Of a stretch of DNA of 40,327 bases, positions 10,859 to 35,461 are shown in pieces. The notes beneath the pieces are model-generated. The model made no database searches. It saw only the letters and a list, made by a program, of their open reading frames with translations, and was not told the origin of the DNA. Location: IMG/VR virus record IMGVR_UViG_3300020477_000060, positions 1 to 40,327 of that record; one strand, written 5' to 3'. Position numbers and translations under genes: made by a program. Numbering within the stretch: position 1 is the first letter of the stretch; every line of letters begins with the position of its first letter. The DNA comes from a virus.

Positions 10859-11588
10859 TTTTTATCCTCATAAATTCAACAAAAGAAGTTTTAGCATATC
10901 CGAATTCGGGTATGATTCTCACAAAAGAAAATTTTAAAAATTTTAACCATTTAATTGCCTCACAGTTATCAACATCAACATAGTTATATAACAGATCCCA
11001 ATTGGTAGACAACAAATGGTCTACCCAACTTTTACCTGTTCGTAAAAATTTTATTTCTAAACCTTTAAAATCACCATCACTCAGCATCCAAGGAATTCCT
11101 ATGCGGTCATTTATTACACTTTTATTTACACCAAACATTCCTTTAACTAAGTCATTATGAACAATTGTATACACTTCATCAGAAGCATAAAAACCAGCAC
11201 ATAACGAATCCACAGGTTTAGATCCACTTGATCTCCATATTTCTTCCTTATCTTTTTCACAGATCCTTGGAGCTAGATTAAAAACATCCTCTACTATGCT
11301 TTTACGGAAGTAACTAGTTAAGTCTTTTGGATCTGATGTGGTAAAACCCTTCCCATTCTGCACTTTGGAATTCACAGGGGAGGTGAGAAGAGGATAAGAG
11401 TTCAAGTTTGATGTTTTTGGAGTTCCCAAGCAGAGGTATTTTAAATGATCCGCTTTCGATAATTGAGGTTTGTCCAGTTTTATTATTTGCCTCTGAAACT
11501 CTTCTACCTGTGAATTTTTTTTCATCGGTATCCTCTGTAAGTCTATTAGTATGTGTGACTTTTGCAGTAAAGTTACCAGTATGAGCAA
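10851..11588 (-). CDS. Internal virion protein A (T7 gp13-like), start unclear
   Basis: The C-terminal 165 residues form a compact GNAT-like protein of the T7 gp13 type: FRKSIVEDVFNLAPRICEKD, EEIWRSSG, then DHLLSTNWDLLYNYVDVDN, which parallels T7 gp13 KYDTLWNYVWVGN. The open frame runs about 274 bases back into the tail-tube-B gene, and the only ATGs (11588, 11525) lie inside that overlap. The N-terminal 80 residues are probably not translated from this frame. No ATG, GTG or TTG lies where the family normally starts, just before FRKS near 11315. The start is therefore unresolved: rare codon, frameshift or sequence error. The stop overlaps the gp14-like start. Confidence 0.7.
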   Translation of the reverse strand: MLILVTLLQKSHILIDLQRIPMKKNSQVEEFQRQIIKLDKPQLSKADHLKYLCLGTPKTSNLNSYPLLTSPVNSKVQNGKGFTTSDPKDLTSYFRKSIVEDVFNLAPRICEKDKEEIWRSSGSKPVDSLCAGFYASDEVYTIVHNDLVKGMFGVNKSVINDRIGIPWMLSDGDFKGLEIKFLRTGKSWVDHLLSTNWDLLYNYVDVDNCEAIKWLKFLKFSFVRIIPEFGYAKTSFVEFMRIKNV

Positions 11589-13863
11589 AGTTTATATTCA
11601 TGTTTCTCAGTTGCAGTCTTGATATTGTTTGTGGTTTCTGACCTTGCCCAATAATTATTTCGCTAAACTGAAATTTAAAATCAAATGCTTGTCCTATATA
11701 AATAGGTTCACTACCACTTACTTTTGCTAGTGCTTCAGCAGATGTTAAAGGATCTCCCTTTTTATCAATATATTTAAGATTTGATCCATCAGCATAGTAT
11801 GTGGATGTAAAATTGCTAATATGACTAGCACTCGTTGCTTTCACTCTACGATCCAATAAAATTTCATGTTTATTGGTTGTGGTTCCTACTGCTTCATCCT
11901 GTGATAATTTTATTTTTTCTAAGTAGACTTTGGTCCCTCTCTGTACAACTAAAAATATTTCATCCTGCACAAAAGTAGTTGCCAGAATGTCGGCATCAAG
12001 AATCCATTTAGACCATGAGGATTGTACCTTATTTTGTCCATTCCAATAGTAGCCATACACCCACATAGTTTTACTGGAAGCACTATCATCTGTTATAAGA
12101 CACAACATATTATAGTTGCTACTAGCACTCATCTGTTTAATATTACCCACTATATACCTAGGTACATGACCTGTTATATCAGTTGCATCTTTTACTTCTG
12201 TATCTGTTTGTAGGTAAAATTCTCTTATGGTACTAAATGCACCCCCTGGACTTGCGAAAAAGACATACCTTCCAGCACCTACTGGTGTAGTACCTAAATC
12301 AGCTTCAAACTCCGTAGTTACATTTAAACTAATGTCTAGTGGACTAAGAAATTCTGCGGAGTTAAGAATGAATTGGGTTTGATCTGAGAAGATAAGGAGG
12401 GATTCAGAGAAAGGAAGGGCATGTTTCAGGATGGAAACACGATTAGTGGATACAGTTACATCAATAGGATCAGTATCAAGAAGATTTAATACAGTAGGAC
12501 GAAACCAATTTAGGAATTCCCCTGCTTCTGTAAAAATAACACTTTCTTCAGACAACACCCCCAACCTGTTTTGATGGAAGAATATATCACTAATAGTAGC
12601 CCCAACAAAACTAGGAAAGGGATTAGAAGTATCATCACCAGCACCTCTAGACTTCCAACCAGCTTGTTTAACCGAGAATGTACCATCTGTTTCTTTTATT
12701 ATTTGTAAAGGCATTGTACTAGCATCTAAACTATTTTGAATACCAGTACCTACAGTTTCTTCGTAGATCCCTTTAGCTTCATCTGTTAATTTTACATAAA
12801 AATCATCAGCAAATTTACTGTTATCACCAGTAATTTTAATAATTGTGTCCTTAGCATCTTCTGGTCCTGCACCGGGAAGTTCAGCAAACTTTTGTGTTGA
12901 ACCTTTAAAAACTTTTATAAAACCATTGGAACGAGAATCAGTTACTTTAATATCAAAATCAGTAGCATCAGAGCATTTTATATGTATAACAGAACCAGAT
13001 ACAGTAGCGGATAACTTTGGAAAAGTTCCAGCATAGTCAGTTCCACCAGTAGTTACAGTTCCAATATTTACTTGACTAGAATTCGTTGCACCTGTTTTAC
13101 TTAAACACTCCCTAATTTTTGCTACTGTTCCAGAAGCGACAGTTGAATCAAAAGCGACATTACCAAAAACAGTACCATCCAATAAAGCTTTAGCAATGCT
13201 ATCAGTAGCAATATTCGCTTCACCTTTATCGTAAGAGCTTACATCACTTGGTGCAGTTACTAGTTCTGCTACTGTAGCGTAGTTACCACTATTAATCCCT
13301 GCTTGTTTTATTTCAATAGTGTACTTAGTTGCATAGTCACCCCCTCGTATGTAGACCATAGCTTCAGGATTCCTAGCAGTTGTAACAGTTGCATCTTTAG
13401 CTACAGTTTTATTTTTATTTACGAGGTAGGTAAAGTCAGCAACAGTTGTAGCACTAAAAGCAGAAGAGGGACTACCATCAGTTAAGTAGGTTTTAATTTC
13501 GTTAAATAAATCTCCAGAGGTAATAATAGAATTAGAAGCATCTCTAGCATTGACATTTTTAGCAGTACCATCACTAGCATCATAAACCTTTACTAAATCA
13601 CCTATACTGCTAGTGTAAGAACCTGTAAATACTGCTACAAATGTTTCTGTACCTGATCTTCTAATTGGGTGAATAAATGCGGAGGAAAAAGAAGTATCTG
13701 ATAGTTTTGCTACATGCTGGGTTCCTGGCCTTTTCTTTAATCCTTTAACTGGATCACTATAGCCATTTTCTTGAACTGTACCTTGGGATTTATCTTGGAC
13801 TGTAGGTGCTTGTTGGCTTACCCCATTAAGTAATGAGGGTATCAGATCAGAAACTAATGGCAT
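11314..13863 (-). CDS. Tail tubular protein B (T7 gp12-like, tail nozzle)
   Basis: 849 residues (T7 gp12: 794). The start MPLVSDLIPSLLNGVSQQAP followed by PVKGLKKRPGTQ is the family hallmark. The middle contains the conserved IFFHQNRLGVLSEESVIFTEAGEFLNWF and SLLIFSDQTQFIL stretches. It forms the tail nozzle below the gp11 ring. The start overlaps the end of the 116-residue gene by 17 bases, with ATG at 13863. The 3' end carries the long overlap with the gp13-like frame. Confidence 0.93.
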   Translation of the reverse strand: MPLVSDLIPSLLNGVSQQAPTVQDKSQGTVQENGYSDPVKGLKKRPGTQHVAKLSDTSFSSAFIHPIRRSGTETFVAVFTGSYTSSIGDLVKVYDASDGTAKNVNARDASNSIITSGDLFNEIKTYLTDGSPSSAFSATTVADFTYLVNKNKTVAKDATVTTARNPEAMVYIRGGDYATKYTIEIKQAGINSGNYATVAELVTAPSDVSSYDKGEANIATDSIAKALLDGTVFGNVAFDSTVASGTVAKIRECLSKTGATNSSQVNIGTVTTGGTDYAGTFPKLSATVSGSVIHIKCSDATDFDIKVTDSRSNGFIKVFKGSTQKFAELPGAGPEDAKDTIIKITGDNSKFADDFYVKLTDEAKGIYEETVGTGIQNSLDASTMPLQIIKETDGTFSVKQAGWKSRGAGDDTSNPFPSFVGATISDIFFHQNRLGVLSEESVIFTEAGEFLNWFRPTVLNLLDTDPIDVTVSTNRVSILKHALPFSESLLIFSDQTQFILNSAEFLSPLDISLNVTTEFEADLGTTPVGAGRYVFFASPGGAFSTIREFYLQTDTEVKDATDITGHVPRYIVGNIKQMSASSNYNMLCLITDDSASSKTMWVYGYYWNGQNKVQSSWSKWILDADILATTFVQDEIFLVVQRGTKVYLEKIKLSQDEAVGTTTNKHEILLDRRVKATSASHISNFTSTYYADGSNLKYIDKKGDPLTSAEALAKVSGSEPIYIGQAFDFKFQFSEIIIGQGQKPQTISRLQLRNMNINFAHTGNFTAKVTHTNRLTEDTDEKKFTGRRVSEANNKTGQTSIIESGSFKIPLLGNSKNIKLELLSSSHLPCEFQSAEWEGFYHIRSKRLN

Positions 13864-16185: not shown

Positions 16186-16209
16186 ATTAATTTTCCTTTT
16201 GATTAATGT

Positions 16210-16271
16210 TAAGGTACGACATTAAATACACCTTAGTCATCAATCACTCTTAGTTATCTTTCCTCAGAAAG
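16210..16271 (-). promoter_or_regulatory. Capsid gene leader with two small inverted repeats
   Basis: The gap between scaffold and capsid holds TAAGGT/ACCTTA (16210-16215 and 16230-16235) and a 5-bp hairpin CTTTC-TGAG-GAAAG (16258-16271). A phage promoter or RNA-processing site would be expected here, as in T7 before gene 10. I see no host-type -35/-10 pair and no copy of the TCTCTAATTCTC element. Confidence 0.35.
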
Positions 16272-16279
16272 GCTAATTG

Positions 16280-17044
16280 CTACATGACATTGGAGTTCGC
16301 AAGTTTGTCGTGAACTTGCTTTCTAAAGCTTGGGTCATCTTGGTAACGAGGATCTCTCATATCCGCTGTTACCTGTGCCATTGAACTGTAAGAACTTGTT
16401 GCATTTGTTGGTTGACCTTGTATTAGATTAGGGGCCGATCCATTAGACATCTGGTATCGTGCATATAGGGAATTAACTGCAAACTTAGCAGTTTCTATAT
16501 TATTAAGATCAACATTAGCATTGTACACTTTAACTTCTTCTGGACTTAGATTTTCTTTAGCCCATGTGGTCATGTTATCGTAAGTATCTTGACCACCAAC
16601 AAGATTATAAACCTGTTGTTGTATTAATTCCGATCTAGCTTGTTGCCCATTTATAAAATCATCTACGAAAGTCTTTGGGATACCAGCATCTTGTAACGCT
16701 TGATATGATCCTTCAGATAATTCACCTTCTCTCGCATACTCAGCCGACAAAGCTCCAAAGTCCAATCCCTTACTCTCCACATATCTTTCAGCTTCATCCA
16801 TAAACTCTTCATTTTCTTGGGAAGAGACTTCATCATTGCTGGTATCTCCTTGAGATAGTTTTTGTTCCAGATTTTTGTAAGCATTAGCGAGATCCTCTGG
16901 GGAGTTAAATTTATCTGGCAACCATTCTGGTCTATCAAAGTTTTCTTCTACTTCTTCTCCATCTGCAAGAGAAGCCATAGCTTCATCATGACCTTCTGGT
17001 GCTTCTTGATTTTCTTCTGCTGGTACTGTTACTTGATCTGCCAT
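16280..17044 (-). CDS. Scaffolding protein (T7 gp9-like)
   Basis: 254 residues, very acidic N-terminal half (EENQEAPEGHDEAMASLADG), then FDRPEWLPDKFNSPEDLANA, a phrase characteristic of T7-type capsid assembly proteins, a helical middle and a C-terminus with DMRDPRYQDDPSFRKQVHDK. It sits directly upstream of the capsid gene. It guides procapsid assembly and leaves before DNA packaging. Confidence 0.9.
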   Translation of the reverse strand: MADQVTVPAEENQEAPEGHDEAMASLADGEEVEENFDRPEWLPDKFNSPEDLANAYKNLEQKLSQGDTSNDEVSSQENEEFMDEAERYVESKGLDFGALSAEYAREGELSEGSYQALQDAGIPKTFVDDFINGQQARSELIQQQVYNLVGGQDTYDNMTTWAKENLSPEEVKVYNANVDLNNIETAKFAVNSLYARYQMSNGSAPNLIQGQPTNATSSYSSMAQVTADMRDPRYQDDPSFRKQVHDKLANSNVM

Positions 17045-26938: not shown

Positions 26939-29407
26939 CTATGCGAAAAAGAAAGGTGAATCTCTCACCATGTTAATATCCAAGTCTCCCTTCATGGGTG
27001 GACTAGGTAATGCTCCTTCTGGTACTACCATTGAAGCATCTCTGAGAAACTCATCACAAACATCCCAACTGTTGTACATTTCAACAAAGGACTCTCGTAA
27101 GAGTTTCTGCATTAATGGCATTTGTGCCACTAATGATCCGTAGGAATCATGAATCATTGTTACTTGATTTAATCCTTGATCCCTGCATTTCTTTAAAGTG
27201 AGTGTTAGATGACTTGCATCAAGACTATGTATTAGATTTGGTGGAGTTGCGTTACCTACTTTCCAGCTATCTTGCTTATTACCTACTGGTGTTCCTTGGA
27301 TGTGTGCCATTATTAATTTACCATCCAGAACTGTTTTAATTTTTCTTGATCTAACCTCTGGGTAATTTTGGACTACTACAAAACCACTAGGTGTTCTCCA
27401 TTGAACAGGTACTCCCTTTGCTATAACTTTCCTTGATACTTCTTTAATCCATTGCATACCAATAGTTGCCGCTTTTACTTTTTCTTCTAATGCTTTCTTT
27501 ATTGGTGTAACTAACCATCTTGATTCTTTAAAAGCATCAGCAACTCTTTTACCACTTTTGAAAGGCCAATATTCCCCAGTATTTTCCACTACATAACTAT
27601 TTAGATACTCTGTGTACATGTGACTAGTTCCACCATAGGGAAATGTCATAACTATTTTCTTCAACATCTTCCTATTAATTAAACTACTCTCTAACCAATC
27701 TCTTGCTAGTGGTTCATTGGAATTCTTTAGCTCATCTATAACTGCATCGGCAACTTGCTGGTACAAATCCTGTGGTTTATCTGTTTCGGTGAGATTACAA
27801 TAAAAACCTGTCTCAGCATCACTTAGAATAGCTGAATAATGTTGAATACCATTTTGTGAACCATCTGTGTGTATCCAATAATTTGATTTATAACCTAATC
27901 CATTATTTTTGTATTTTTTCCATTCCTTGCAGAACGCTAAAAATTGCCAAGGTTCATCTGCTTCTGTCCAAAACTTACAATCAAAAGGATGCTTAGAACT
28001 TTCTAAAATTGCTGGTGTGTTATGCTCTACCCATCCTACTCTTTGTTTTATTGAAGCTTTATCAAAACCATATAAATTTGCTCCTGCAACTGCTAGAGCA
28101 TCCACTTGATCTTGTTCTGTAACAGGCATTCCTACTGCACTTTGTAAAAGTGACTTAGACCAATCTGGACCCTGTGGATGTAAGAAGTTGTGCATGAGGT
28201 AATATCTACCTCTGTAATCACATTGGGCTACATAGTTAAATCTTTTGTGTTGCATTAAATCCTTTGCCATTTGCAAACCCCTGACAAACTGCAACCTTCT
28301 AGAGTAAATCTGATTGTTTTTCCTCATTAACATGGCATAAGGTTTAGCCCACTCATCCCATATTATTTTTTGTTCATCTGTTAATGTTTTTTTAGGTGTG
28401 CCAGGAAAAGGACATTGTGGTAATTGGTAAGGATCTCTAGTAGGTATTCCTTCCCAAGAATCCCCACTTTCATAAGCTCTTTCCATTACCTGAAACATAG
28501 AAGTATTTATACTGAATTCAGTTTGTTGCATTTGGTTCAATGCTTCATAAACCAAAGGCATTTCTACATTGTCTAAATCTTGATATCCAGATTTCTTGTG
28601 TAGCTTAATTGCTCTCAAACCTTTTAAATGACTAGTGTAATAACCACCACCTAGTGTTTTCTCTTGCCAATCCCTAGGTGTTACAACACAAGGCATGTAT
28701 TGAGTTGCAATCTTCTCTTTATGTTTCTCAAGTTTTTCAATCCAATCAATTGCTGATGGATTAGCTACAACCATATTTATGGTTTTCTTTTTATTTACAT
28801 AATTAGGTATTATGTTTATAAGTCCTGTTTCTCTATGAATTAGGTGAATTAAAATTTTACCCAACATGACCTTATCGGCATCATCCAACGTAAGTTCATG
28901 TAAATTTAATTCTGTTTTTCTAGAGAGTAGCCAAGTCATAGCATTTTTCTTGCGATACCTTGGGTTTCTTTTCTGATGCTCTGACTCTAAGACTTTCTTA
29001 AAATAATTTGGATTCTCTGCACGGAAAATACGCAACCTATATTCATCTTGTATAGAATTACCTATAGTTCTGGCAACTCTCATTTCAGGATGTTGTTGTG
29101 AAATGCTATCTAAAGTACAAATCAATGCTAGGTAGGCTATTGTTTCATCTTCTAGTCTTAAAGAATCAACAACATCTATTAGGTGAGTAGCGTATGCTGG
29201 ATGTCCTTTTATTCTCCTTAGTTTCCAATTATAAAAAGCAGTAGCTACTGGTTGTACTGCTTCTGACATAATAAAACGTACAGAGGGGAGTCTAGTCCAT
29301 GACTCTGAATTCTTCGCATCTTGTGAACCCCTCTGGTAACGCTTTTGACCTATGCGTTTACCTTCTAGTTCAAGGCTTAACTGCTTTTCCAGTACGTTTT
29401 GATACAT
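26939..29407 (-). CDS. Single-subunit DNA-directed RNA polymerase (T7 gp1-like)
   Basis: 822 residues (T7: 883). Catalytic residues are in place: Asp515 in HTDGSQNGIQHYSAILSD (T7 Asp537), Arg579, Lys583 and Tyr591 in INRKMLKKIVMTFPYGG (T7 Arg627, Lys631, Tyr639), and Asp754 in MIHDSYGS (T7 Asp812). The protein ends SPFFFA, keeping the C-terminal Phe-Ala foot. The promoter-specificity region (about 690-710, KTVLDGKLIMAHIQGTPVG) differs from T7, so its promoter cannot be read from T7 rules. Its start overlaps the zinc-ribbon gene by 38 bases. A host-type promoter at 31456-31484 is the likely driver of this gene block. Confidence 0.97.
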   Translation of the reverse strand: MYQNVLEKQLSLELEGKRIGQKRYQRGSQDAKNSESWTRLPSVRFIMSEAVQPVATAFYNWKLRRIKGHPAYATHLIDVVDSLRLEDETIAYLALICTLDSISQQHPEMRVARTIGNSIQDEYRLRIFRAENPNYFKKVLESEHQKRNPRYRKKNAMTWLLSRKTELNLHELTLDDADKVMLGKILIHLIHRETGLINIIPNYVNKKKTINMVVANPSAIDWIEKLEKHKEKIATQYMPCVVTPRDWQEKTLGGGYYTSHLKGLRAIKLHKKSGYQDLDNVEMPLVYEALNQMQQTEFSINTSMFQVMERAYESGDSWEGIPTRDPYQLPQCPFPGTPKKTLTDEQKIIWDEWAKPYAMLMRKNNQIYSRRLQFVRGLQMAKDLMQHKRFNYVAQCDYRGRYYLMHNFLHPQGPDWSKSLLQSAVGMPVTEQDQVDALAVAGANLYGFDKASIKQRVGWVEHNTPAILESSKHPFDCKFWTEADEPWQFLAFCKEWKKYKNNGLGYKSNYWIHTDGSQNGIQHYSAILSDAETGFYCNLTETDKPQDLYQQVADAVIDELKNSNEPLARDWLESSLINRKMLKKIVMTFPYGGTSHMYTEYLNSYVVENTGEYWPFKSGKRVADAFKESRWLVTPIKKALEEKVKAATIGMQWIKEVSRKVIAKGVPVQWRTPSGFVVVQNYPEVRSRKIKTVLDGKLIMAHIQGTPVGNKQDSWKVGNATPPNLIHSLDASHLTLTLKKCRDQGLNQVTMIHDSYGSLVAQMPLMQKLLRESFVEMYNSWDVCDEFLRDASMVVPEGALPSPPMKGDLDINMVRDSPFFFA

Positions 29408-29591
29408 ATATCCCTAACTTCCTGTCTAGGATAAGCTCATCCGTTACTTTTAACGATTCTACTTCTAATTGCACTCTTGCAATTGCTATATACTTATTAC
29501 TACAAGAGCATTCAATAATACTACTACCAGAATGTTCCCTGTGTTCTATGTGTCTTTTACCACAATGAGGACACTTACTTTCTACTCTCAT
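29370..29591 (-). CDS. Small zinc-ribbon protein, unknown
   Basis: 73 residues starting MRVESKCPHCGKRHIEHREH; the pair CPHC and the pair C-S-C at residues 28-30 with intervening His residues suggest a zinc ribbon, followed by a beta-type domain (KYIAIARVQLEVESLKV). It is the gene just upstream of the RNA polymerase and overlaps its start. Its stop-start neighbour is the Na/Pi transporter (29591). A nucleic-acid-binding role is possible but unproven. Confidence 0.65.
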   Translation of the reverse strand: MRVESKCPHCGKRHIEHREHSGSSIIECSCSNKYIAIARVQLEVESLKVTDELILDRKLGIYVSKRTGKAVKP

Positions 29592-30070
29592 TAAAACCTT
29601 CCTATTAACTTAGATATTTGATTAACAAAAGGTAATAAACATATTGCCATTAATGTGTTAACTCCTGTGTGTACAATAGCAACTTGTTTAGTTATTCCTG
29701 TTGGCATACCATCTGATACAAGTAATCCTGCCAACCATATAGTTCCAGTAGTACCTATATTAGCCCCAAGTATACAAGCAATAGCAGAAGGTAAAGGTAA
29801 GATGCCACTAGCAACTAAACCAATTATAGCAGTTGTACTTAGTGAACTAGATTGCCAAAGTAACGTACACACAATCCCCCCGATAAACATATAATATGGG
29901 TTAGACATAAAGTATTTAAGTTGTTCTACATCACCTAAAGACTTCATGCCACTAGCAAACATTTTTAAACCTATGTAGAACACAACTAATCCAACAACTA
30001 TACTTACAACTGGACTATCCAATAGTAGTTTCCTCATATACTGCTGGTTTAAAGTTTCTGTCATAGTCAT
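29591..30070 (-). CDS. Na+/phosphate cotransporter, single-repeat (PF02690-like)
   Basis: 159 residues, about four or five membrane segments. The repeat signature of the NptA/PNaS family is unmistakable: GLVVFYIGLKMFASGMKSLG, then WQSSSLSTTAIIGLVASGIL with the QSSS motif (73-76), LGANIGTTGT (101-110) and HTGVNTLMAICLLPF. Cellular proteins carry two such repeats (often plus a PhoU domain) in about 300-550 residues; this one has one repeat and would have to work as a dimer or modify a host carrier. ATGs at 30070, 30064 and 30037 are possible; an AGGA five bases before 30064 favours that one. It looks host-derived, an auxiliary metabolic gene for phosphate uptake. Confidence 0.88.
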   Translation of the reverse strand: MTMTETLNQQYMRKLLLDSPVVSIVVGLVVFYIGLKMFASGMKSLGDVEQLKYFMSNPYYMFIGGIVCTLLWQSSSLSTTAIIGLVASGILPLPSAIACILGANIGTTGTIWLAGLLVSDGMPTGITKQVAIVHTGVNTLMAICLLPFVNQISKLIGRF

Positions 30071-30636: not shown

Positions 30637-31126
30637 AGTGTCCTCCTATAAATTTTTTACCTTTATTAGGTGCTTCTCTTTCTCTTAATGATTCTACTTC
30701 ACCATCTAATCCATGATAAAGTGCAGTTAGTTGTCTCATAAACTGCTTTTCATACTTAGCTACTTCATTTTCTGCTACAAACTTATGTTTAATTTCACCA
30801 TCAACTAATACATCTACTCTCTTTTTACCTTTGTTAAGTGGTGATCTACCCTTACAAGACTTTAAATGATTCTCTCTTCTCTTTTTGTCATACTTGAGCA
30901 TCCTTTTATAAGCAATAGGTTGATACTCTTTTTGTAAACAACCACAACTCTTAGTATTTAACTGTACAACTGCTTGATGGTATACCTTAGTGTAGTTACC
31001 GCAATCACACCTATATACATTAATTCTATGTCCAAATTTATCTCTATGAGAGAATCTAACCATAGTAAGTCTACTACCATCTATTTTACCAGTAAGTTGC
31101 CCTTTATCCTTCACCATGTTCTTCAT
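30629..31126 (-). CDS. Zinc-binding DNA-associated protein (CxCG...SCGC type)
   Basis: 165 residues. The N-terminal 60 read GKIDGSRLTMVRFSHRDKFG...YRCDCGNYTKVY...TKSCGCLQ: paired CDCG and CGC cysteines of the small zinc domain frequently found in phage homing-endonuclease-like (AP2/HNH) proteins. The rest is basic (RMLKYDKKRRENHLKSCKGR) with no HNH catalytic residues that I can see. Likely binds DNA; a free-standing nuclease is not supported. Confidence 0.6.
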   Translation of the reverse strand: MKNMVKDKGQLTGKIDGSRLTMVRFSHRDKFGHRINVYRCDCGNYTKVYHQAVVQLNTKSCGCLQKEYQPIAYKRMLKYDKKRRENHLKSCKGRSPLNKGKKRVDVLVDGEIKHKFVAENEVAKYEKQFMRQLTALYHGLDGEVESLREREAPNKGKKFIGGHYV

Positions 31127-31376
31127 TTGTAAGAGAATCTACTTTACAAATACCATGTCTCCTAACACTATCAAAAGTCCAAGAGTAAACTTTAGCGTAT
31201 TCTTCACCAGCAACTAGTTTTCTACTAAATGAATCACTTAATGAAGATAGTTTTTTTATTGTACCACCATTATTTTTATAAGCTTCTATTGCTTTATTTA
31301 ACTCATCTCTGGAAATTTCATTAACTTTAGATTTCCAATGATGTGCTAATGCCCTTGAAGCAAAAGTATTTCTCAT
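31104..31376 (-). CDS. Hypothetical protein, first gene after the host-type promoter
   Basis: 90 residues: basic N-terminus MRNTFASRALAHHWKSKVNE, then DELNKAIEAYKNNGGTIKKL, a helix-turn pattern also common in small cyanophage proteins. Function unknown. It is the first gene after the predicted promoter at 31456-31484 and would head the RNA polymerase operon, the place of early host-takeover genes in T7-like phages. Confidence 0.6.
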   Translation of the reverse strand: MRNTFASRALAHHWKSKVNEISRDELNKAIEAYKNNGGTIKKLSSLSDSFSRKLVAGEEYAKVYSWTFDSVRRHGICKVDSLTNEEHGEG

Positions 31377-31455: not shown

Positions 31456-31484
31456 AGTATTCCACACCCCCCAAACCCTGTCAA
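31456..31484 (-). promoter_or_regulatory. Host sigma70-type promoter for the early/RNA polymerase block
   Basis: Minus-strand TTGACA (31484-31479), a spacer of exactly 17 bases, then AATACT (31461-31456). The -35 is consensus and the -10 matches four of six, close to T7 A1 (TTGACT-17-GATACT). It overlaps the stop codon of the ribbon-helix-helix gene and points at the operon 31376 to 21 kb. Confidence 0.65.
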
Positions 31485-31648
31485 GAATTTTTTTTATCCC
31501 TTTCAATTTTTTCTATAACTGCCAATTCCACAAAAGCTTTAAGGGACATGTCCAGATCGTTCTGTAGAATAAACATTTTGGCTTCTTTAACAAGTTTTCG
31601 GGCCAAGACTACGTTAATTACCTCTTTTGCTTGCATTTGCATTCCCAT
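31481..31648 (-). CDS. Small ribbon-helix-helix (CopG/Arc-like) DNA-binding candidate
   Basis: 55 residues from ATG 31648: MGMQMQAKEVINVVLARKLV then KEAKMFILQNDLDMSLKAFV. A short beta strand (EVINVVLA), helix, Asp-x-Asp-x-Ser turn and second helix (KAFVELAVIEKIERD) is the ribbon-helix-helix pattern. A frame stop just upstream rules out a longer version. The only good Shine-Dalgarno (AGGAG, 31671-31675) is 22 bases away and better placed for an overlapping 16-18-codon leader ORF, suggesting coupled translation. It lies directly downstream of the integrase and is the best candidate for the regulator that binds the AGTTTTCGGG repeats. The fold is inferred by eye. Confidence 0.55.
   Translation of the reverse strand: MGMQMQAKEVINVVLARKLVKEAKMFILQNDLDMSLKAFVELAVIEKIERDKKNS
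31593..31602 (+). repeat. AGTTTTCGGG repeat, copy 1
   Basis: Exact ten-base copy inside the regulator gene. It is one of six within 775 bases and all lie in the same orientation. A given ten-mer is expected well under once in the whole window. Confidence 0.8.
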
Positions 31649-31670
31649 GGTTATATTTTGACATTCTCAT
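31614..31670 (-). CDS. Possible leader peptide overlapping the regulator gene
   Basis: An 18-codon frame MRMSKYNHGNANASKRGN, or 16 codons from the second ATG at 31664. The second ATG is six bases after AGGAG, a better site than the regulator gene has. It ends inside the regulator gene in another frame. Either a coupling device or chance. Confidence 0.3.
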   Translation of the reverse strand: MRMSKYNHGNANASKRGN

Positions 31671-31692
31671 CTCCTGTTACCTTTCTGGAGTT

Positions 31693-31704
31693 GAGAATTA
31701 GAGA
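31693..31704 (-). promoter_or_regulatory. Repeated upstream element, copy A (regulator gene)
   Basis: Minus-strand TCTCTAATTCTC immediately after the integrase terminator hairpin and 45 bases before the ribbon-helix-helix ATG. It is one of seven copies at 31.7-35.4 kb and is extended upstream to TCTCTCTAATTCTC here. Confidence 0.7.
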
Positions 31705-31706
31705 GA

Positions 31707-31731
31707 GGGGCAAGCCTGAGAAACTTGCCCC
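31707..31731 (-). terminator. Integrase terminator hairpin
   Basis: GGGGCAAG and CTTGCCCC form a perfect 8-bp stem with a 9-base loop, five bases after the integrase stop codon on the minus strand. It is followed by TCTCTCTAATTC instead of a plain T run. Confidence 0.7.
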
Positions 31732-31736
31732 GACTA

Positions 31737-32312
31737 CTACATAATGTTTAGTGCTTCAGCTTTATTAAGTGCATCCTCTGCACTTATATTTAAATAAAGA
31801 CTTGTTGAAGCAACATTACTATGTCCCAGTAGTTGCCTACAAGTCTCAATATCTCTAGTTTCCCTATAAACAAGATAAGGTTTTGTCCTTCGCAAGCTAT
31901 GACTACTGTATAGTTCCCAATCTAATCCAGCAGAATAAGCAATATCTTTTACAATATTTCTATATTGTGGTGCTGAAATAGGTTTAAGATTGCCAGTTTT
32001 CGGGCAAGCTTTTCTACTTGGGAATAAAGGGTCATCGTGCTGGAGTTTTCGGGCATGAAGATAATTGCGAACTAGATCCATAGTGTAATCTGACAATCGA
32101 CAATTAACTTTTCTAGATGTCTTCTTTTGCTTAACTTCTAGATTTTTTCGGATTCTTCCATGAACATCTACAATATCACTTACTCTTAAAGCAATAAGAT
32201 CACAACATCTAAGGCATGTATCAACATGAACACAAAAGAGAAGTTGATTCCTACCAATAAGTTTATTTCTAATAGAATGAATTTGCTCTTTTGTGAAAGG
32301 TTGCTTTTGCAT
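31737..32312 (-). CDS. int: Tyrosine recombinase / integrase (catalytic domain only)
   Basis: 191 residues. The catalytic set is visible: Arg35 in DTCLRCCDLIALR, His138 and Arg141 in HSLRRTK, His164 in QLLGHSN, and nucleophile Tyr173 in STSLYLN. There is no N-terminal arm-binding or full core-binding domain, so it is shorter than lambda-type integrases (about 350 residues). Pelagiphages of the HTVC019P type carry an integrase at this place, upstream of the RNA polymerase, and integrate into host tRNA genes; no tRNA-derived attP core was recognised here. It has its own host-type promoter (32417-32444), and five of the six AGTTTTCGGG copies lie in or just upstream of it. Confidence 0.92.
   Translation of the reverse strand: MQKQPFTKEQIHSIRNKLIGRNQLLFCVHVDTCLRCCDLIALRVSDIVDVHGRIRKNLEVKQKKTSRKVNCRLSDYTMDLVRNYLHARKLQHDDPLFPSRKACPKTGNLKPISAPQYRNIVKDIAYSAGLDWELYSSHSLRRTKPYLVYRETRDIETCRQLLGHSNVASTSLYLNISAEDALNKAEALNIM
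31995..32004 (+). repeat. AGTTTTCGGG repeat, copy 2
   Basis: Exact copy inside the integrase gene. It encodes part of ACPKTG, a different reading frame from copy 3 (ARKL), so the conservation is not due to shared protein sequence. Confidence 0.8.
32044..32053 (+). repeat. AGTTTTCGGG repeat, copy 3
   Basis: Exact copy inside the integrase gene, followed by CAT as in copy 6. The extended consensus is AGTTTTCGGGCA. Confidence 0.8.
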
Positions 32313-32315
32313 GGT

Positions 32316-32367
32316 GGTTTTCGGGGAGAGAATTAGAGAGATACCAAGTTTTCGGGAAGTTTTCGGG
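32316..32367 (+). repeat. AGTTTTCGGG repeats 4-6, cluster in the integrase leader
   Basis: Copies at 32316-32325 (GGTTTTCGGG, one change), 32347-32356 and 32358-32367 (both exact) lie between the integrase promoter and its ATG. Copies 5 and 6 are spaced 11 bases apart, one helical turn, which suits side-by-side protein binding. Copy 4 reaches to four bases from the integrase start codon. Confidence 0.85.
32328..32339 (-). promoter_or_regulatory. Repeated upstream element, copy B (integrase)
   Basis: TCTCTAATTCTC on the minus strand, 15 bases before the integrase ATG and lying between repeat copies 4 and 5. No hairpin directly precedes this copy, unlike most others. Confidence 0.7.
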
Positions 32368-32403
32368 CATAGGCATTATTCCTCGCTGGAGAAAGCATTT
32401 AAA

Positions 32404-32444
32404 ATTTTAGGATCGGATTTTAAGATCCAAAAACTAAATGTCAA
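32404..32444 (-). promoter_or_regulatory. Host sigma70-type promoter for integrase with operator-like repeats
   Basis: Minus-strand TTGACA (32444-32439), 16-base spacer, TAAAAT (32422-32417; five of six to consensus). The -10 is embedded in a near-perfect direct repeat, ATTTTAGGATC / ATTTTAAGATC (32404-32414 and 32417-32427), and flanked by GGATC/GATCC inverted repeats, a layout typical of a repressor site. Confidence 0.65.
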
Positions 32445-32476
32445 ATTTAATTTTAATTTTCTAGAAAAAAATAGAA

Positions 32477-32518
32477 AACCCTTGAACCATGAAAAAATTA
32501 TAGCATGTTCCAAGGGTT
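32477..32518 (-). terminator. Intrinsic terminator after the GP88-like gene
   Basis: A 15-position stem (AACCCTTGAACCATG against CATGTTCCAAGGGTT, 13 pairs) with a 12-base loop, followed on the minus strand by TTTTCTATTTTTTTC. Confidence 0.85.
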
Positions 32519-32539
32519 GAAGGAAAGGAAAACTTAATT

Positions 32540-33199
32540 TTATTGTACAAATTGGGAATTAGATTTTCTGGCTGGACCTTTAGCTCTCAAACCAATTATT
32601 ACTGAAGGTTTATCGAACATTCTTAAATCATTTTTATCACCATTGATAACTGGAAAACCTTTCCAAGTTTCAGGAATTTGCTTAAATACAACTGCAATTT
32701 GACCACCTTGAATTATAAAAGAGCGGATCCAATTTATTTTAGTTTTCTCATTAAAACTGTAAATTAAATGATAATTGTTTGGGAGTTTGCCATTGAGAAA
32801 GTCGGAAAATAGGTCAGGGTTTTTTGTATAGTCATAAAAGAAAACTTCAGGATTATTATTAATTATATCAAACTGTGTCCAATCAATGTCAGACGTTCCG
32901 TTCAATCTTACCAGCGGTTTTTTACCTTTTTTAATTGCTAATCTAGAGAGTTCTTTTATTTCAACATGAAGTTTCATTAAAAATAATTCCCTATCCTGAA
33001 AAAATAGCTTTGTCCGTTCCAATCTTGCGTTCCTGCTATTTTTAAATTTCATCCTGCCAATTTGTTTTAAACATAAATGCATACAATCCCCCGAATTGGG
33101 ACAAAGTATTTTATTAGGTTCAAGGTACAGCATTTTAGAAATAAATTTTCCCTGTATATCGTTTTTTAAAGATTTGTGGCTTTCTGAAAGTAGATACAT
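32540..33199 (-). CDS. GP88-like protein (PF17338 type), unknown function
   Basis: 219 residues. Family features are LLSESHKSLKN, LYLEPNKILCPNSGDCMHLC (paired cysteines), GRMKFKNSRNARLERTKLFF, VRLNGTSDIDW and EVFFYDYTKNP, then NYHLIYSFNEKT. These match the gene-product-88 family of phages and plasmids; its function is not known to me. The ATG at 33199 is only seven bases from the repeated element and has no Shine-Dalgarno, yet the start is right for the family, so the message may be leaderless. It has its own terminator and element, a self-contained cassette. Confidence 0.8.
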   Translation of the reverse strand: MYLLSESHKSLKNDIQGKFISKMLYLEPNKILCPNSGDCMHLCLKQIGRMKFKNSRNARLERTKLFFQDRELFLMKLHVEIKELSRLAIKKGKKPLVRLNGTSDIDWTQFDIINNNPEVFFYDYTKNPDLFSDFLNGKLPNNYHLIYSFNEKTKINWIRSFIIQGGQIAVVFKQIPETWKGFPVINGDKNDLRMFDKPSVIIGLRAKGPARKSNSQFVQ

Positions 33200-33206
33200 A
33201 AGTTTT

Positions 33207-33218
33207 GAGAATTAGAGA
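33207..33218 (-). promoter_or_regulatory. Repeated upstream element, copy C (GP88-like gene)
   Basis: TCTCTAATTCTC, then AAAACTT and the ATG. It lies just after the T-rich tail of the preceding terminator. Confidence 0.75.
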
Positions 33219-33233
33219 AGTGACAAAAAACAA

Positions 33234-33271
33234 AAAACCCTAGAAATATAAAAGTATATCCCTAGGGTTTT
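33234..33271 (-). terminator. Intrinsic terminator after the 74-residue gene
   Basis: A 17-position stem with 15 pairs (AAAACCCTAG...TATA against TATAT...CTAGGGTTTT), a 4-base loop, and then TTTTTTGTTTTTTG on the minus strand. A textbook rho-independent terminator. Confidence 0.9.
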
Positions 33272-33295
33272 AATTAAATATCTTTTTAGAGTTTA

Positions 33296-33520
33296 TTAGA
33301 ATTCCCCCCTCATGAATGGTTCATCAGTTTGGGGAACTTCAAGCATTCCATCATTTACAAAAATATAGTTTCGAGTAAATTTATTTTTAAAAGGTATTGA
33401 ACCTTCTATATTTTCACTCATCAACATAAATTCCGATGGGTCCAGGTATGAGTATTTATCACTTTTTTTTATTGCTTCTGTTAATTCATTAAAAGCAATA
33501 TGTACAAGGTTTTTATCCAT
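33296..33520 (-). CDS. Hypothetical accessory protein
   Basis: 74 residues from ATG 33520 (MDKNLVHIAFNELTEAIKKS). This start follows GAAAGG by ten bases, the same ribosome site as at neighbouring genes; an upstream ATG at 33538 has none. The C-terminal half is beta-like (NKFTRNYIFVNDGMLEVPQT). No family recognised. It is the last gene of a three-gene cassette with 33513-33686 and 33688-33819. Confidence 0.6.
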   Translation of the reverse strand: MDKNLVHIAFNELTEAIKKSDKYSYLDPSEFMLMSENIEGSIPFKNKFTRNYIFVNDGMLEVPQTDEPFMRGEF

Positions 33521-33686
33521 TGTTAGTTTTCCTTTCATAATGTTGCTCGTTCATCAGCTTGCACTCATCTTGTACAATTGGATGCCAAACTCCTTTAATA
33601 GGGTCCAAGGGTTTATAATTATCTTTTGCCCATTGTCTAAATTCTTTTTCCTCACTAGCATTTAAGTGCCTGAATAAATCAATCAT
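33513..33686 (-). CDS. Small conserved-looking phage protein
   Basis: 57 residues, MIDLFRHLNASEEKEFRQWA, then KDNYKPLDPIKGVWHPIVQD. The pattern (F)R.WA...Y.P...I.gVWHP.vq.Ec..mN recurs in small marine phage proteins as I remember them; function unknown. The ATG is preceded by AGGAAGGAAATTAAA, a strong ribosome site, and its end overlaps the next start. Confidence 0.65.
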   Translation of the reverse strand: MIDLFRHLNASEEKEFRQWAKDNYKPLDPIKGVWHPIVQDECKLMNEQHYERKTNNG

Positions 33687-33687
33687 T

Positions 33688-33819
33688 TTAATTTCCTTCC
33701 TGAAATGGTGAATAATATTTATTATAAATGTCTCTTTCTATTCTCATCACTTCGCAAATAATTCCAATCCCTAAAATTACAATTCCAACCACTATCAGCA
33801 TTTCAATTTTTCTTTGCAT
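33688..33819 (-). CDS. Small single-span membrane protein
   Basis: 43 residues: MQRKIEMLIVVGIVILGIGI, a membrane segment (residues 7-22), then EVMRIERDIYNKYYSPFQEGN. It starts ten bases after the repeated element with AAAAGG as ribosome site, and is directly followed by the 57-residue gene (one base between stop and ATG). Function unknown. Confidence 0.6.
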   Translation of the reverse strand: MQRKIEMLIVVGIVILGIGIICEVMRIERDIYNKYYSPFQEGN

Positions 33820-33829
33820 GTTACCTTTT

Positions 33830-33841
33830 GAGAATTAGAGA
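33830..33841 (-). promoter_or_regulatory. Repeated upstream element, copy D
   Basis: TCTCTAATTCTC between a terminator T run (TTTTTTTTATT) and AAAAGGTAACATG. It heads the three-gene cassette 33819-33296. Confidence 0.75.
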
Positions 33842-33852
33842 AATAAAAAAAA

Positions 33853-33880
33853 CCTAGGGAATTAGAATTAACTCCCTAGG
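33853..33880 (-). terminator. Intrinsic terminator after the 56-residue gene
   Basis: CCTAGGGA pairs with TCCCTAGG (8 bp) around a 12-base loop, followed on the minus strand by TTTTTTTTATTT. The loop contains TTCTAATT, resembling the nearby repeated element. Confidence 0.9.
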
Positions 33881-33891
33881 GAAAAGATTAA

Positions 33892-34062
33892 TTAATAAAC
33901 ACCATAACTAGGCTTGCCCCACAGAATTTCCATTCTTGCCCTACCAAGTTTAGTTTTCAAACTGTGGATTTCTTTTTTCAATCGGCTATTTTCATCAATA
34001 TTCTGAATTACCGATTTTAATAATAATTCATTTGTTTGCGTTGCTGTTTGATCAACTGACAT
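33892..34062 (-). CDS. Small coiled-coil protein, unknown
   Basis: 56 residues. After MSVDQTATQTNELLLKSVIQ comes a probable coiled coil (NIDENSRLKKEIHSLKTKLG) and the end MEILWGKPSYGVY. The ATG follows GAAAGGTATTT, identical to the ribosome site of the DUF932 gene. Single-gene cassette with element and terminator. Confidence 0.65.
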   Translation of the reverse strand: MSVDQTATQTNELLLKSVIQNIDENSRLKKEIHSLKTKLGRARMEILWGKPSYGVY

Positions 34063-34081
34063 AAATACCTTTCATAAAAAT

Positions 34082-34093
34082 AAGAATTAGAGA
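34082..34093 (-). promoter_or_regulatory. Repeated upstream element, copy E
   Basis: TCTCTAATTCTT, one base different from the other copies, 19 bases before the ATG at 34062 and directly after the T run of the preceding terminator. Confidence 0.7.
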
Positions 34094-34097
34094 AAAA

Positions 34098-34123
34098 CTA
34101 GGGAAACTTTATTGCTTCCCTAG
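34098..34123 (-). terminator. Intrinsic terminator after the 78-residue gene
   Basis: CTAGGGAA pairs with TTCCCTAG (8 bp), 10-base loop, then TTTTTC on the minus strand. Confidence 0.85.
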
Positions 34124-34131
34124 AAAAGATA

Positions 34132-34368
34132 TTAATTTGTAGGAATAGCTCGAACGCTATTACCTACAAACTCATTGCCAAAATTCTGTCCTGAAGCAAT
34201 AGCACTTTCTAAATCTAATTCATTACTACTAGATTTAAATTGTTTTATTGCATCAGTTCTGGTTTTTGCTTCAACAACTGTTTCAGCCAGCACTCTTTTT
34301 TTAACTTCAAATTGAAGTCTAAAAGTTTTAAGTGCAGTTTCTAGGGTTTCAACTTTATCTTTTCCCAT
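34132..34368 (-). CDS. Hypothetical accessory protein
   Basis: 78 residues, MGKDKVETLETALKTFRLQF then EVKKRVLAETVVEAKTRTDA: an amphipathic strand-helix start typical of small phage proteins in which a V.A.t..eA pattern recurs. Polar C-terminus (ESAIASGQNFGNEFVGNSVR). Not recognised. The ATG at 34368 is preceded by GAAAGGAACATATT. Single-gene cassette. Confidence 0.65.
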   Translation of the reverse strand: MGKDKVETLETALKTFRLQFEVKKRVLAETVVEAKTRTDAIKQFKSSSNELDLESAIASGQNFGNEFVGNSVRAIPTN

Positions 34369-34389
34369 AATATGTTCCTTTCAAGTTAT

Positions 34390-34401
34390 GAGAATTAGAG
34401 A
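34390..34401 (-). promoter_or_regulatory. Repeated upstream element, copy F
   Basis: TCTCTAATTCTC, 21 bases before the ATG at 34368, after a series of three hairpins. Confidence 0.75.
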
Positions 34402-34404
34402 GTT

Positions 34405-34491
34405 CAAGAAAACTTAATTGCTTTCCTGAAGGATACACTATTATTAATGTATCCTTGCGGAAACCCTAGGATTCTAATTTGAACCCTAGGG
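34405..34491 (-). terminator. Three consecutive hairpins after the DUF932 gene
   Basis: In transcript order: CCTAGGG...CCCTAGG (34464-34491), a perfect 9-bp AAGGATACA/TGTATCCTT stem (34429-34456), and a 9-position stem with seven pairs (34405-34428). Only the last is close to a T-rich stretch. It is stronger than needed for simple termination, so mRNA 3'-end protection is possible. Confidence 0.7.
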
Positions 34492-34499
34492 AATTAAAA

Positions 34500-35405
34500 T
34501 TAAACTGTTTCTTCTATACGTTCTTGTATTTCTAAATTTGCTCTTTCTTGATCAGACATATCACTAGGCATTACTTCAACTGGCATTGCTTCAAATTCAT
34601 CATCGGTAAGTTCAATTATATTGCTGGTATCTAAACCTACGATGTTATCCATTAGACCACATAGCTTGATGTTTCGAGTTGTCACTTGATCAAGATTTTT
34701 ATAGCACTTGAAGCTTTCTGTAAAAGCGTTATTAAGTGACCACAAGTTCCTAGGTTCAAACTCTTGATGCGTTGAACTTTGACTTCCTTCTTCACTTCTC
34801 CACTCGTTTAAAACTTTATAGATATTTGATGGTGAAAGAATATCCGCATCACAGGCTTTTATAATAAAGTCATGAACCCATGATTCACTCTTAATTTCCC
34901 TACCCTTGTATGCTTCTATTCTTTTATCATTTATTTCATCAAGAAATTTTAATTGCTGGACAGCCCTTAAAATTAAGTTTGGTAACCTTGAAAAGACATT
35001 TTTTGTATGTCTTGTCTTAATTACAATCTCACCACTAAAAATTAAATTGTCACATATTGTTACTCTTGATCCTCCAGCTAGTGCTATTGGGAATTTTTTG
35101 TCATGGCTATTTCTGAATGCCATTATTCCTTTATAATCTGCGTTGTGCTTATCAAAAAAGACATCACAAATTCCAAACAATCTATTATGGTTATGAGTTG
35201 TTCCAGTTTTAAAATTGTCTAGTTCAATACCGATGTTATTAGCACTCTCTATAATGTTATTAATGACAGTACTGTGAGGGACTGTTTGATGAGTGATAAC
35301 ACCCTGTTCATTAAATCCCGGTGGTGGCGTTGGTATGGTTTCGAGTTCAGCCAATGAAATATCAAGACCTAAACCATAATTTGTTAGCTGTGTTGAGTTT
35401 GACAT
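34500..35405 (-). CDS. DUF932-family protein, first gene of the accessory region
   Basis: 301 residues. The family core is visible: AFRNSHDKKFPIALAGGSRV (96-115), TICDNLIFSGEIVIKTRHTK (116-135), RIEAYKGREIKSESWVHDFI and RNLWSLNNAFTESFKCYKNL. DUF932 (PF06067) proteins occur in phages and plasmids; the activity is unproven, though some have been discussed with anti-restriction or defence contexts. The C-terminus is acidic. It is the first gene after the presumed genome-end region, the place of the anti-restriction gene 0.3 in T7, which makes an early host-takeover role plausible but not shown. The start follows GAAAGGTATTT. Confidence 0.75.
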   Translation of the reverse strand: MSNSTQLTNYGLGLDISLAELETIPTPPPGFNEQGVITHQTVPHSTVINNIIESANNIGIELDNFKTGTTHNHNRLFGICDVFFDKHNADYKGIMAFRNSHDKKFPIALAGGSRVTICDNLIFSGEIVIKTRHTKNVFSRLPNLILRAVQQLKFLDEINDKRIEAYKGREIKSESWVHDFIIKACDADILSPSNIYKVLNEWRSEEGSQSSTHQEFEPRNLWSLNNAFTESFKCYKNLDQVTTRNIKLCGLMDNIVGLDTSNIIELTDDEFEAMPVEVMPSDMSDQERANLEIQERIEETV

Positions 35406-35424
35406 AAATACCTTTCTTTATAAT

Positions 35425-35436
35425 GAGAATTAGAGA
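35425..35436 (-). promoter_or_regulatory. Repeated upstream element, copy G (DUF932 gene)
   Basis: TCTCTAATTCTC, 19 bases before the ATG at 35405. A hairpin (35440-35461) directly precedes it although no gene lies upstream that would need terminating. Confidence 0.75.
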
Positions 35437-35439
35437 ATC

Positions 35440-35461
35440 ACGTTATCAAAATGAATAACGT
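35440..35461 (-). other. Hairpin ahead of element copy G
   Basis: Perfect 7-bp stem ACGTTAT/ATAACGT with an 8-base loop, with no T run behind it and no upstream gene. It suggests that hairpin plus element may form one functional leader module. Confidence 0.5.

Follow-up and report, generated by a model that had tools for sequence, protein, structure and literature searches.

A conserved short element heads exchangeable early-gene cassettes in temperate T7-like phages and may be the core of a -35-less promoter

The early region of the virus record IMGVR_UViG_3300020477_000060 raises the question of why one short sequence, the 12-mer TCTCTAATTCTC, should stand in a single orientation in front of one accessory gene or small operon after another. 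The window analysed here is the whole stretch of 40,327 bases, in which nearly all genes lie on the minus strand; it belongs to a T7-like podovirus with its own RNA polymerase (RNAP), a T7-type terminase and a 191-aa integrase, for which the Pfam match is nearly full length. The element, with its strict 8-mer TCTCTAAT, may be the core of a short promoter lacking a -35 box that heads terminator-insulated early cassettes, a reading to which we give about an even chance.

Six exact copies of TCTCTAATTCTC and one copy with a single change (TCTCTAATTCTT) were found within 31,693–35,436, each on the minus strand and 7–44 bases before an ATG (Table 1); this bore out the preliminary description, which had reported seven copies pointing the same way before genes. 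TCTCTAATTCTC was the most-repeated 12-mer of the window, and the chance expectation for exact copies was 0.00 (dinucleotide shuffles). The confinement of full copies to this region, also claimed earlier, was upheld: no further copy at one mismatch or fewer occurred anywhere in the window, while five more matches at two mismatches, on the opposite strand, were at chance level for the whole window. A short form had been described after the capsid terminators. Such a sequence, TCTCTAATAAAA, is present there (15124, minus strand), but it is not conserved, relatives having CTTAAATAAAA instead, and it is probably a coincidence.

Conservation was assessed across the window and related IMG/VR contigs, together ten genomes or fragments with 47 sites at orthologous positions. 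TCTCTAAT was intact at 47 of 47 sites, an invariance that is partly a selection effect since the sites were gathered by TCTCTAAT itself. Where the early region was complete (the window, G001, G006 and G007), seven of seven slots held the exact 8-mer. Identity between orthologous pairs was 1.00 over the 8-mer, 0.85–0.90 over its tail and 0.4–0.7 at most flanking positions; the conserved information was limited to about 13 bp. The base 5' of the 8-mer was a pyrimidine at every site, and the tail that follows it read TCTC, TTCTC, CTCTC, TCCC, CTC or TCTCTC, usually with A next. The relatives form two clusters (the window versus the rest), such that few independent lineages lie behind this conservation, though the flanks have strongly diverged. 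Absence from relatives had been named beforehand as counting against the element; the search recovered it at the same slots.

The lineage in question consists of temperate T7-like phages known from metagenomes only. In IMG/VR it appeared as a small, isolated group with RNAP 80% identical to that of the window. No annotated phage was found to be near by DNA comparison, and no relative by RNAP was found in a prophage search of bacterial genomes; TerL relatives in bacterial genomes reached at most approximately 62% identity and none had the multi-copy element. When the element plus ribosome site was sought across all of IMG/VR, multi-copy hits occurred in this lineage only, and single hits elsewhere were scattered and about as numerous as for a scrambled control.

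Each copy heads one gene or a small operon, and inner operon genes lack it, in the window and in relatives; the three-gene operon at 33.3–33.8 kb, for instance, carries it at the first gene only. Early units with their own terminator all start with the element, the RNAP operon excepted. The genes behind it have been exchanged. G006 and G007 are 98% identical for RNAP and TerL and 95% for the integrase, against 55% for their slot 1 proteins and 16% for their slot 4b proteins. At slot 1, identity drops just past the element's leader and returns once the following hairpin and element are reached. The slot 5 gene is gp88-like in the window, G001 and G002; an unrelated one takes its place in G006 and G007 and, judged by start sequences, in G005 and G008 as well. 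The constancy of the slots, the restriction to first genes and the exchange of the genes in between lend good support to the earlier proposal that units of hairpin, element, ribosome site and gene are independent morons. Conservation, position, slot structure and cassette exchange were all established directly.

Every genome had its slots in one constant order, and none showed duplication, deletion or reordering at the elements, which points to homologous exchange through the shared leaders rather than to site-specific movement. An invariant core and variable hairpins that bound gene cassettes, with a small tyrosine recombinase adjoining, might suggest that the minimal integrase moves cassettes at the element, much as integron cassettes are moved. 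This is highly improbable: besides the constant order, an inverted partner core is absent, the distance between hairpin and element ranges over 0–16 nt, and homologous exchange through the shared leaders explains the swaps.

Initiation of transcription by the element, and the position of the start, we infer from sequence. As a promoter, the strict TCTCTAAT block would be followed by a stretch of 3–6 pyrimidines and then usually by an A, the putative transcription start, with the ribosome site and gene directly after; terminator hairpins upstream would insulate the units, so that swapping a gene would leave its neighbours undisturbed. TCTAAT, 3–6 pyrimidines and an A are arranged like a -10 box with its start site. 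Invariance of the 8-mer and its restriction to first genes speak for a promoter, as does the RNAP operon: this one early unit that lacks the element has a TTGACA-type promoter in its stead, with TTGACA conserved in all seven aligned genomes (Table 1). The strong terminator stem of slots 4 and 5 leaves only about 33–35 nt up to the ATG, and the element is the sole conserved part of that stretch; if these units have transcripts of their own, the start must therefore be at the element. The gp36 promoters of phiEco32 (tAATGTAtA) are single-element and -35-less with a strict short core (PMC8948821), which indicates that a strict short block suffices when a special factor reads it. They resemble the element, as do T4 late promoters, in having a strict block of 8–9 bp, no -35 box and a start a few bases downstream, but differ in sequence and serve the middle or late genes of phages that rely on host RNAP. 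T4 late promoters read TATAAATA.

Several observations weigh against a promoter. No conserved -35 box, TGN or AT-rich block was found 5' of the element at the 47 sites, and TCTAAT has C at its second position in all 47, replacing the critical -11 A of sigma-70; a sigma-70 promoter would have a TTGACA-like -35 box 16–18 nt before a -10 box with A second and T sixth, and the element does not conform. Nor does it look like T7-type promoters. TTGACA occurs farther upstream at the integrase gene and, in several relatives, at slot 1, where the element may be part of the leader. No sigma factor or other recognition factor for the element was found. As for what might read such a promoter, host RNAP with an unusual specificity factor is a tentative suggestion, somewhat favoured over the phage's own enzyme. 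A more specific proposal, that a phage factor redirects host RNAP to an 8-bp, -35-less promoter class, TCTCTAAT, and so makes the cassettes autonomous transcription units, is decidedly unlikely. The first gene of the RNAP operon (31104–31376, minus strand) encodes a conserved 90-aa protein that is a weak candidate for the factor, with a weak, sub-threshold match to the SutA RNAP-binding domain in the window and in relatives (four of the five homologues scanned).

T7-like phages usually have their early region read by host RNAP and the rest by phage RNAP. The preliminary description had suggested that the element might be a short promoter for the phage's single-subunit RNAP, a sub-case contained within the even chance given to a promoter and rather unlikely taken alone. 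The window RNAP is 31% identical to that of LUZ100 and 32% to that of Pelagibacter phage Eistla over nearly the whole protein, and the most-repeated 12-mer was taken from T7-like loci of 31–33% RNAP identity for calibration. In several of them it was an RNAP promoter or a lookalike: L064, L065/L084/L086/LUZ100, L072, L078 and L080 gave a promoter-like motif of approximately 20 bp, [AG]ATTA..ACAG..TAT.GGA and variants, close to the RNAP gene on both its upstream and its downstream side and extending into the middle genes, while the repeat of L104, unlike the others, was a tandem array. The LUZ100 motifs are experimentally mapped phage promoters (PMC10134795), and by analogy those of the other loci are probably promoters also. 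The rank of TCTCTAATTCTC among the 12-mers of the window, where no rival multi-copy promoter-like motif was found, would accord with such a role; TCTCTAAT also crudely resembles the T3/T7 core (CTCACTAAA/CTCACTATA), and the element shares with the LUZ100 and T7-type promoters its occurrence as a multi-copy motif in a T7-like phage with an integrase. However, T7-type promoters are blocks of approximately 17–23 bp, AT-rich at -17 to -13, with a purine-rich and in the comparison motifs usually GGA-like start, and their copies are placed beside the RNAP gene and farther downstream, ahead of middle and late genes. The element has none of this shape. A pyrimidine stretch follows it, the start bases in a T7 alignment would be pyrimidines, and in the window as in relatives every copy is found upstream of the RNAP operon, none flanking the RNAP gene. 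In addition, the T7 specificity residues R746, N748, R756 and Q758 align with K, K, I and A. The suggestion is weakened on each of these counts. IMG/VR contained no RNAP between 80% and about 34% identity, and hence no intermediates in which motif and RNAP could be seen to change together.

A hidden phage promoter was sought beside the RNAP gene and ahead of the capsid gene, but no multi-copy motif was found at either place. At 16186–16327 (minus strand) both the end of the scaffold gene, where 47 bases are identical in the compared genomes and include a GCAAGTT..AACTTGC hairpin, and the gap before the capsid gene show very strong conservation. The pre-capsid block is single-copy; this stretch is perhaps a late promoter or an RNA structure.

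The leaders around the element also admit an explanation at the RNA level, the chief competitor of the promoter reading, possible but on balance doubtful: transcribed UCUCUAAUUCUC would act in the 5' untranslated region, on translation, mRNA stability or processing, recognised by a protein of the host or the phage while staying single-stranded beside a hairpin. The preliminary description had likewise named an RNA-processing site or a leader used in lysogeny, roles that are conceivable here. Hairpins lie upstream of six of the seven copies, the exception being the integrase copy (32328), which is preceded by CCCGAAAAC repeats. The earlier statement that copies mostly follow straight after a terminator hairpin is correct as to the hairpins, but the U-tract of an intrinsic terminator is present in three only (34123–34098, 33880–33853 and 33271–33234). 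The upstream hairpins retain the same pairing despite changed sequence (every slot 2 and slot 3 leader examined had a 10-bp stem and a 6-nt loop), and conservation of structure rather than sequence is in keeping with an RNA leader. The element is, moreover, always in the untranslated leader, in transcript orientation and near the ribosome site, and predicted folds leave most of it unpaired (27% of bases paired), although this low pairing may just reflect the strong neighbouring hairpins. The upstream TTGACA would put the slot 1 and integrase elements inside the transcript, and read-through from upstream promoters would mean that the element is transcribed. At similar places in the early region, pelagiviruses carry hammerhead-like sequences and an unstructured leader, AACAAACAAACAAA. 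Yet an RNA leader leaves the transcription of units behind strong terminators unexplained, and the RNAP operon, a unit with its own start, does without the element. Rfam gave no gathering-score match in the window or relatives, only weak hits at chance level.

Other candidates were rejected. A hammerhead or other ribozyme at the element was set aside for lack of an Rfam match, the U-tract of a terminator on account of the variable hairpin distance (0–16 nt) and the integrase copy without a hairpin, and a hairpin promoter of the N4 type on account of the inconstant spacing. A BoxA antitermination site was dismissed on grounds of sequence, and complementarity to the 790 loop of 16S rRNA over 9 nt was judged to be chance. 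As a separate observation, Pelagibacter phages Eistla, HTVC168P and HTVC031P (L055, L056 and L057; e.g., L056 at ~491–590) have apparent complete hammerhead ribozymes before small early genes; these hammerhead-like sequences, with AACAAACAAACAAAGGA next, gave no gathering-score match in Rfam.

Short, asymmetric repeats that all face the same way in a temperate phage's early region might also be sites for a lysogeny repressor, either operators or stoperators. They recall the stoperators of cluster A mycobacteriophages, which are repressor sites spread through the genome (PMC9283540) and likewise short, asymmetric and of one orientation relative to transcription. The element is restricted to the early region, where it always stands ahead of a unit's first gene and no copy was seen within genes; CCCGAAAACT, with 5–8 copies in one orientation that also fall within coding sequence, suits the stoperator role better and is the better operator candidate. 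A repressor role for the element is accordingly improbable. The second repeat of the region, CCCGAAAAC(T), occurs in six copies of one orientation at 31594–32367 (minus strand), some before and within the integrase gene, others within the 55-aa gene resembling ribbon-helix-helix (RHH) proteins. Relatives have 5–8 copies, the last of which before the integrase gene sits 7–8 nt from the element. These repeats are candidates for stoperator-like or arm-site-like sequences.

Table 1. Elements, upstream hairpins and associated genes of the early region, with positions in the window
Feature	Position	Strand	Remarks
Element, slot 1	35425..35436	-	TCTCTAATTCTC; DUF932-like gene 19 nt on; kept in G001 (tail variant), G006, G007, G008 and L044
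Element, slot 2	34390..34401	-	TCTCTAATTCTC; 78-aa gene 21 nt on
Element, slot 3	34082..34093	-	TCTCTAATTCTT, one change; 56-aa gene 19 nt on; exact 12-mer in relatives
Element, slot 4	33830..33841	-	TCTCTAATTCTC; 43-aa gene 10 nt on, first of three-gene operon
Element, slot 5	33207..33218	-	TCTCTAATTCTC; gp88-like gene 7 nt on; Shine-Dalgarno sequence absent between
Element before integrase gene	32328..32339	-	TCTCTAATTCTC; ATG 15 nt on; no hairpin, CCCGAAAAC repeats in its place
Element after integrase gene	31693..31704	-	TCTCTAATTCTC; 55-aa RHH-like gene 44 nt on; last copy ahead of RNAP operon
Hairpin directly 5' of slot 1 element	35440..35461	-	Pairing retained in relatives, sequence not; no U-tract
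Hairpin 5' of slot 2 element	34403..34430	-	10-bp stem, 6-nt loop
Hairpin 5' of slot 3 element	34098..34123	-	Intrinsic-terminator-like
Hairpin 5' of slot 4 element	33853..33880	-	Strong, intrinsic-terminator-like, U-tract
Hairpin 5' of slot 5 element	33234..33271	-	Strong, intrinsic-terminator-like, U-tract
GC-rich hairpin 5' of last element, after integrase gene	31707..31731	-	
Slot 1 gene, DUF932-like (weak Pfam match), 301 aa	34500..35405	-	Alleles swapped among relatives
Slot 2 gene, 78 aa, unknown	34132..34368	-	
Slot 3 gene, 56 aa, unknown	33892..34062	-	Relatives show two allele types
Slot 4 operon, three small genes	33296..33819	-	Genes after the first vary among relatives; no internal element
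Slot 5 gene, Pfam GP88	32540..33199	-	Several relatives have an unrelated gene instead
Integrase, 191 aa	31737..32312	-	Pfam tyrosine-recombinase match at residues 8-177
55-aa gene, possibly RHH DNA-binding protein (weak evidence)	31481..31648	-	
Sigma-70-like promoter of RNAP operon	31456..31484	-	TTGACA-N17-AATACT, TGN before -10
Single-subunit T7-like RNAP gene	26939..29407	-	

The RNAP operon also contains, at 29591–30070 (minus strand), a gene that carries a Na+/Pi-cotransporter domain (PF02690) and is possibly a host-derived metabolic gene.

Among known systems, the element comes nearest in layout and distribution to the start-associated sequences (SAS) and ESAS of cluster K mycobacteriophages (PMC3203893, PMC11373665). 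The SAS is a 13-bp, asymmetric, family-restricted repeat just 5' of the starts of non-structural genes, almost always in one orientation; the intergenic gaps that hold it are larger than usual, an inverted repeat (ESAS) is often found immediately 5' of it, and it precedes genes of different families. As a kind, then, a short, asymmetric, family-restricted sequence of one orientation before the start codons of non-structural genes, the element corresponds to it. It is not a member of the SAS, from which it differs in sequence, in phage type and presumably in host. The SAS consensus GGGATAGGAGCCC contains the Shine-Dalgarno sequence AGGAG, whereas TCTCTAATTCTC is pyrimidine-rich and upstream of a separate ribosome site; and ESAS arms share a consensus and contain putative -35 and -10 boxes, whereas the present hairpins vary in sequence and resemble terminators. 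The promoter-early-stem-loop (PeSL) cassettes of T4-related phages are similar in that a stem-loop and an early promoter border exchangeable small genes, but T4 early promoters are of the sigma-70 type with recognisable -35 and -10 boxes. By these comparisons the element would work like a start signal at a cassette border. Elsewhere, the terminase-bearing contig L188, from a Neomarinimicrobiota metagenome-assembled genome, has eight copies of a TGTCCCGAGGGGACA hairpin in one orientation, often shortly before genes (11241–13494), possibly another start-associated repeat.

If this account is true, this temperate T7-like lineage would possess a second layer of regulation, in which one lineage-wide start signal heads swappable, insulated single-gene cassettes. 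The element would offer a simple handle for spotting the accessory genes of such phages, and would make it possible to test how cassette borders enable early genes to be exchanged between phages.

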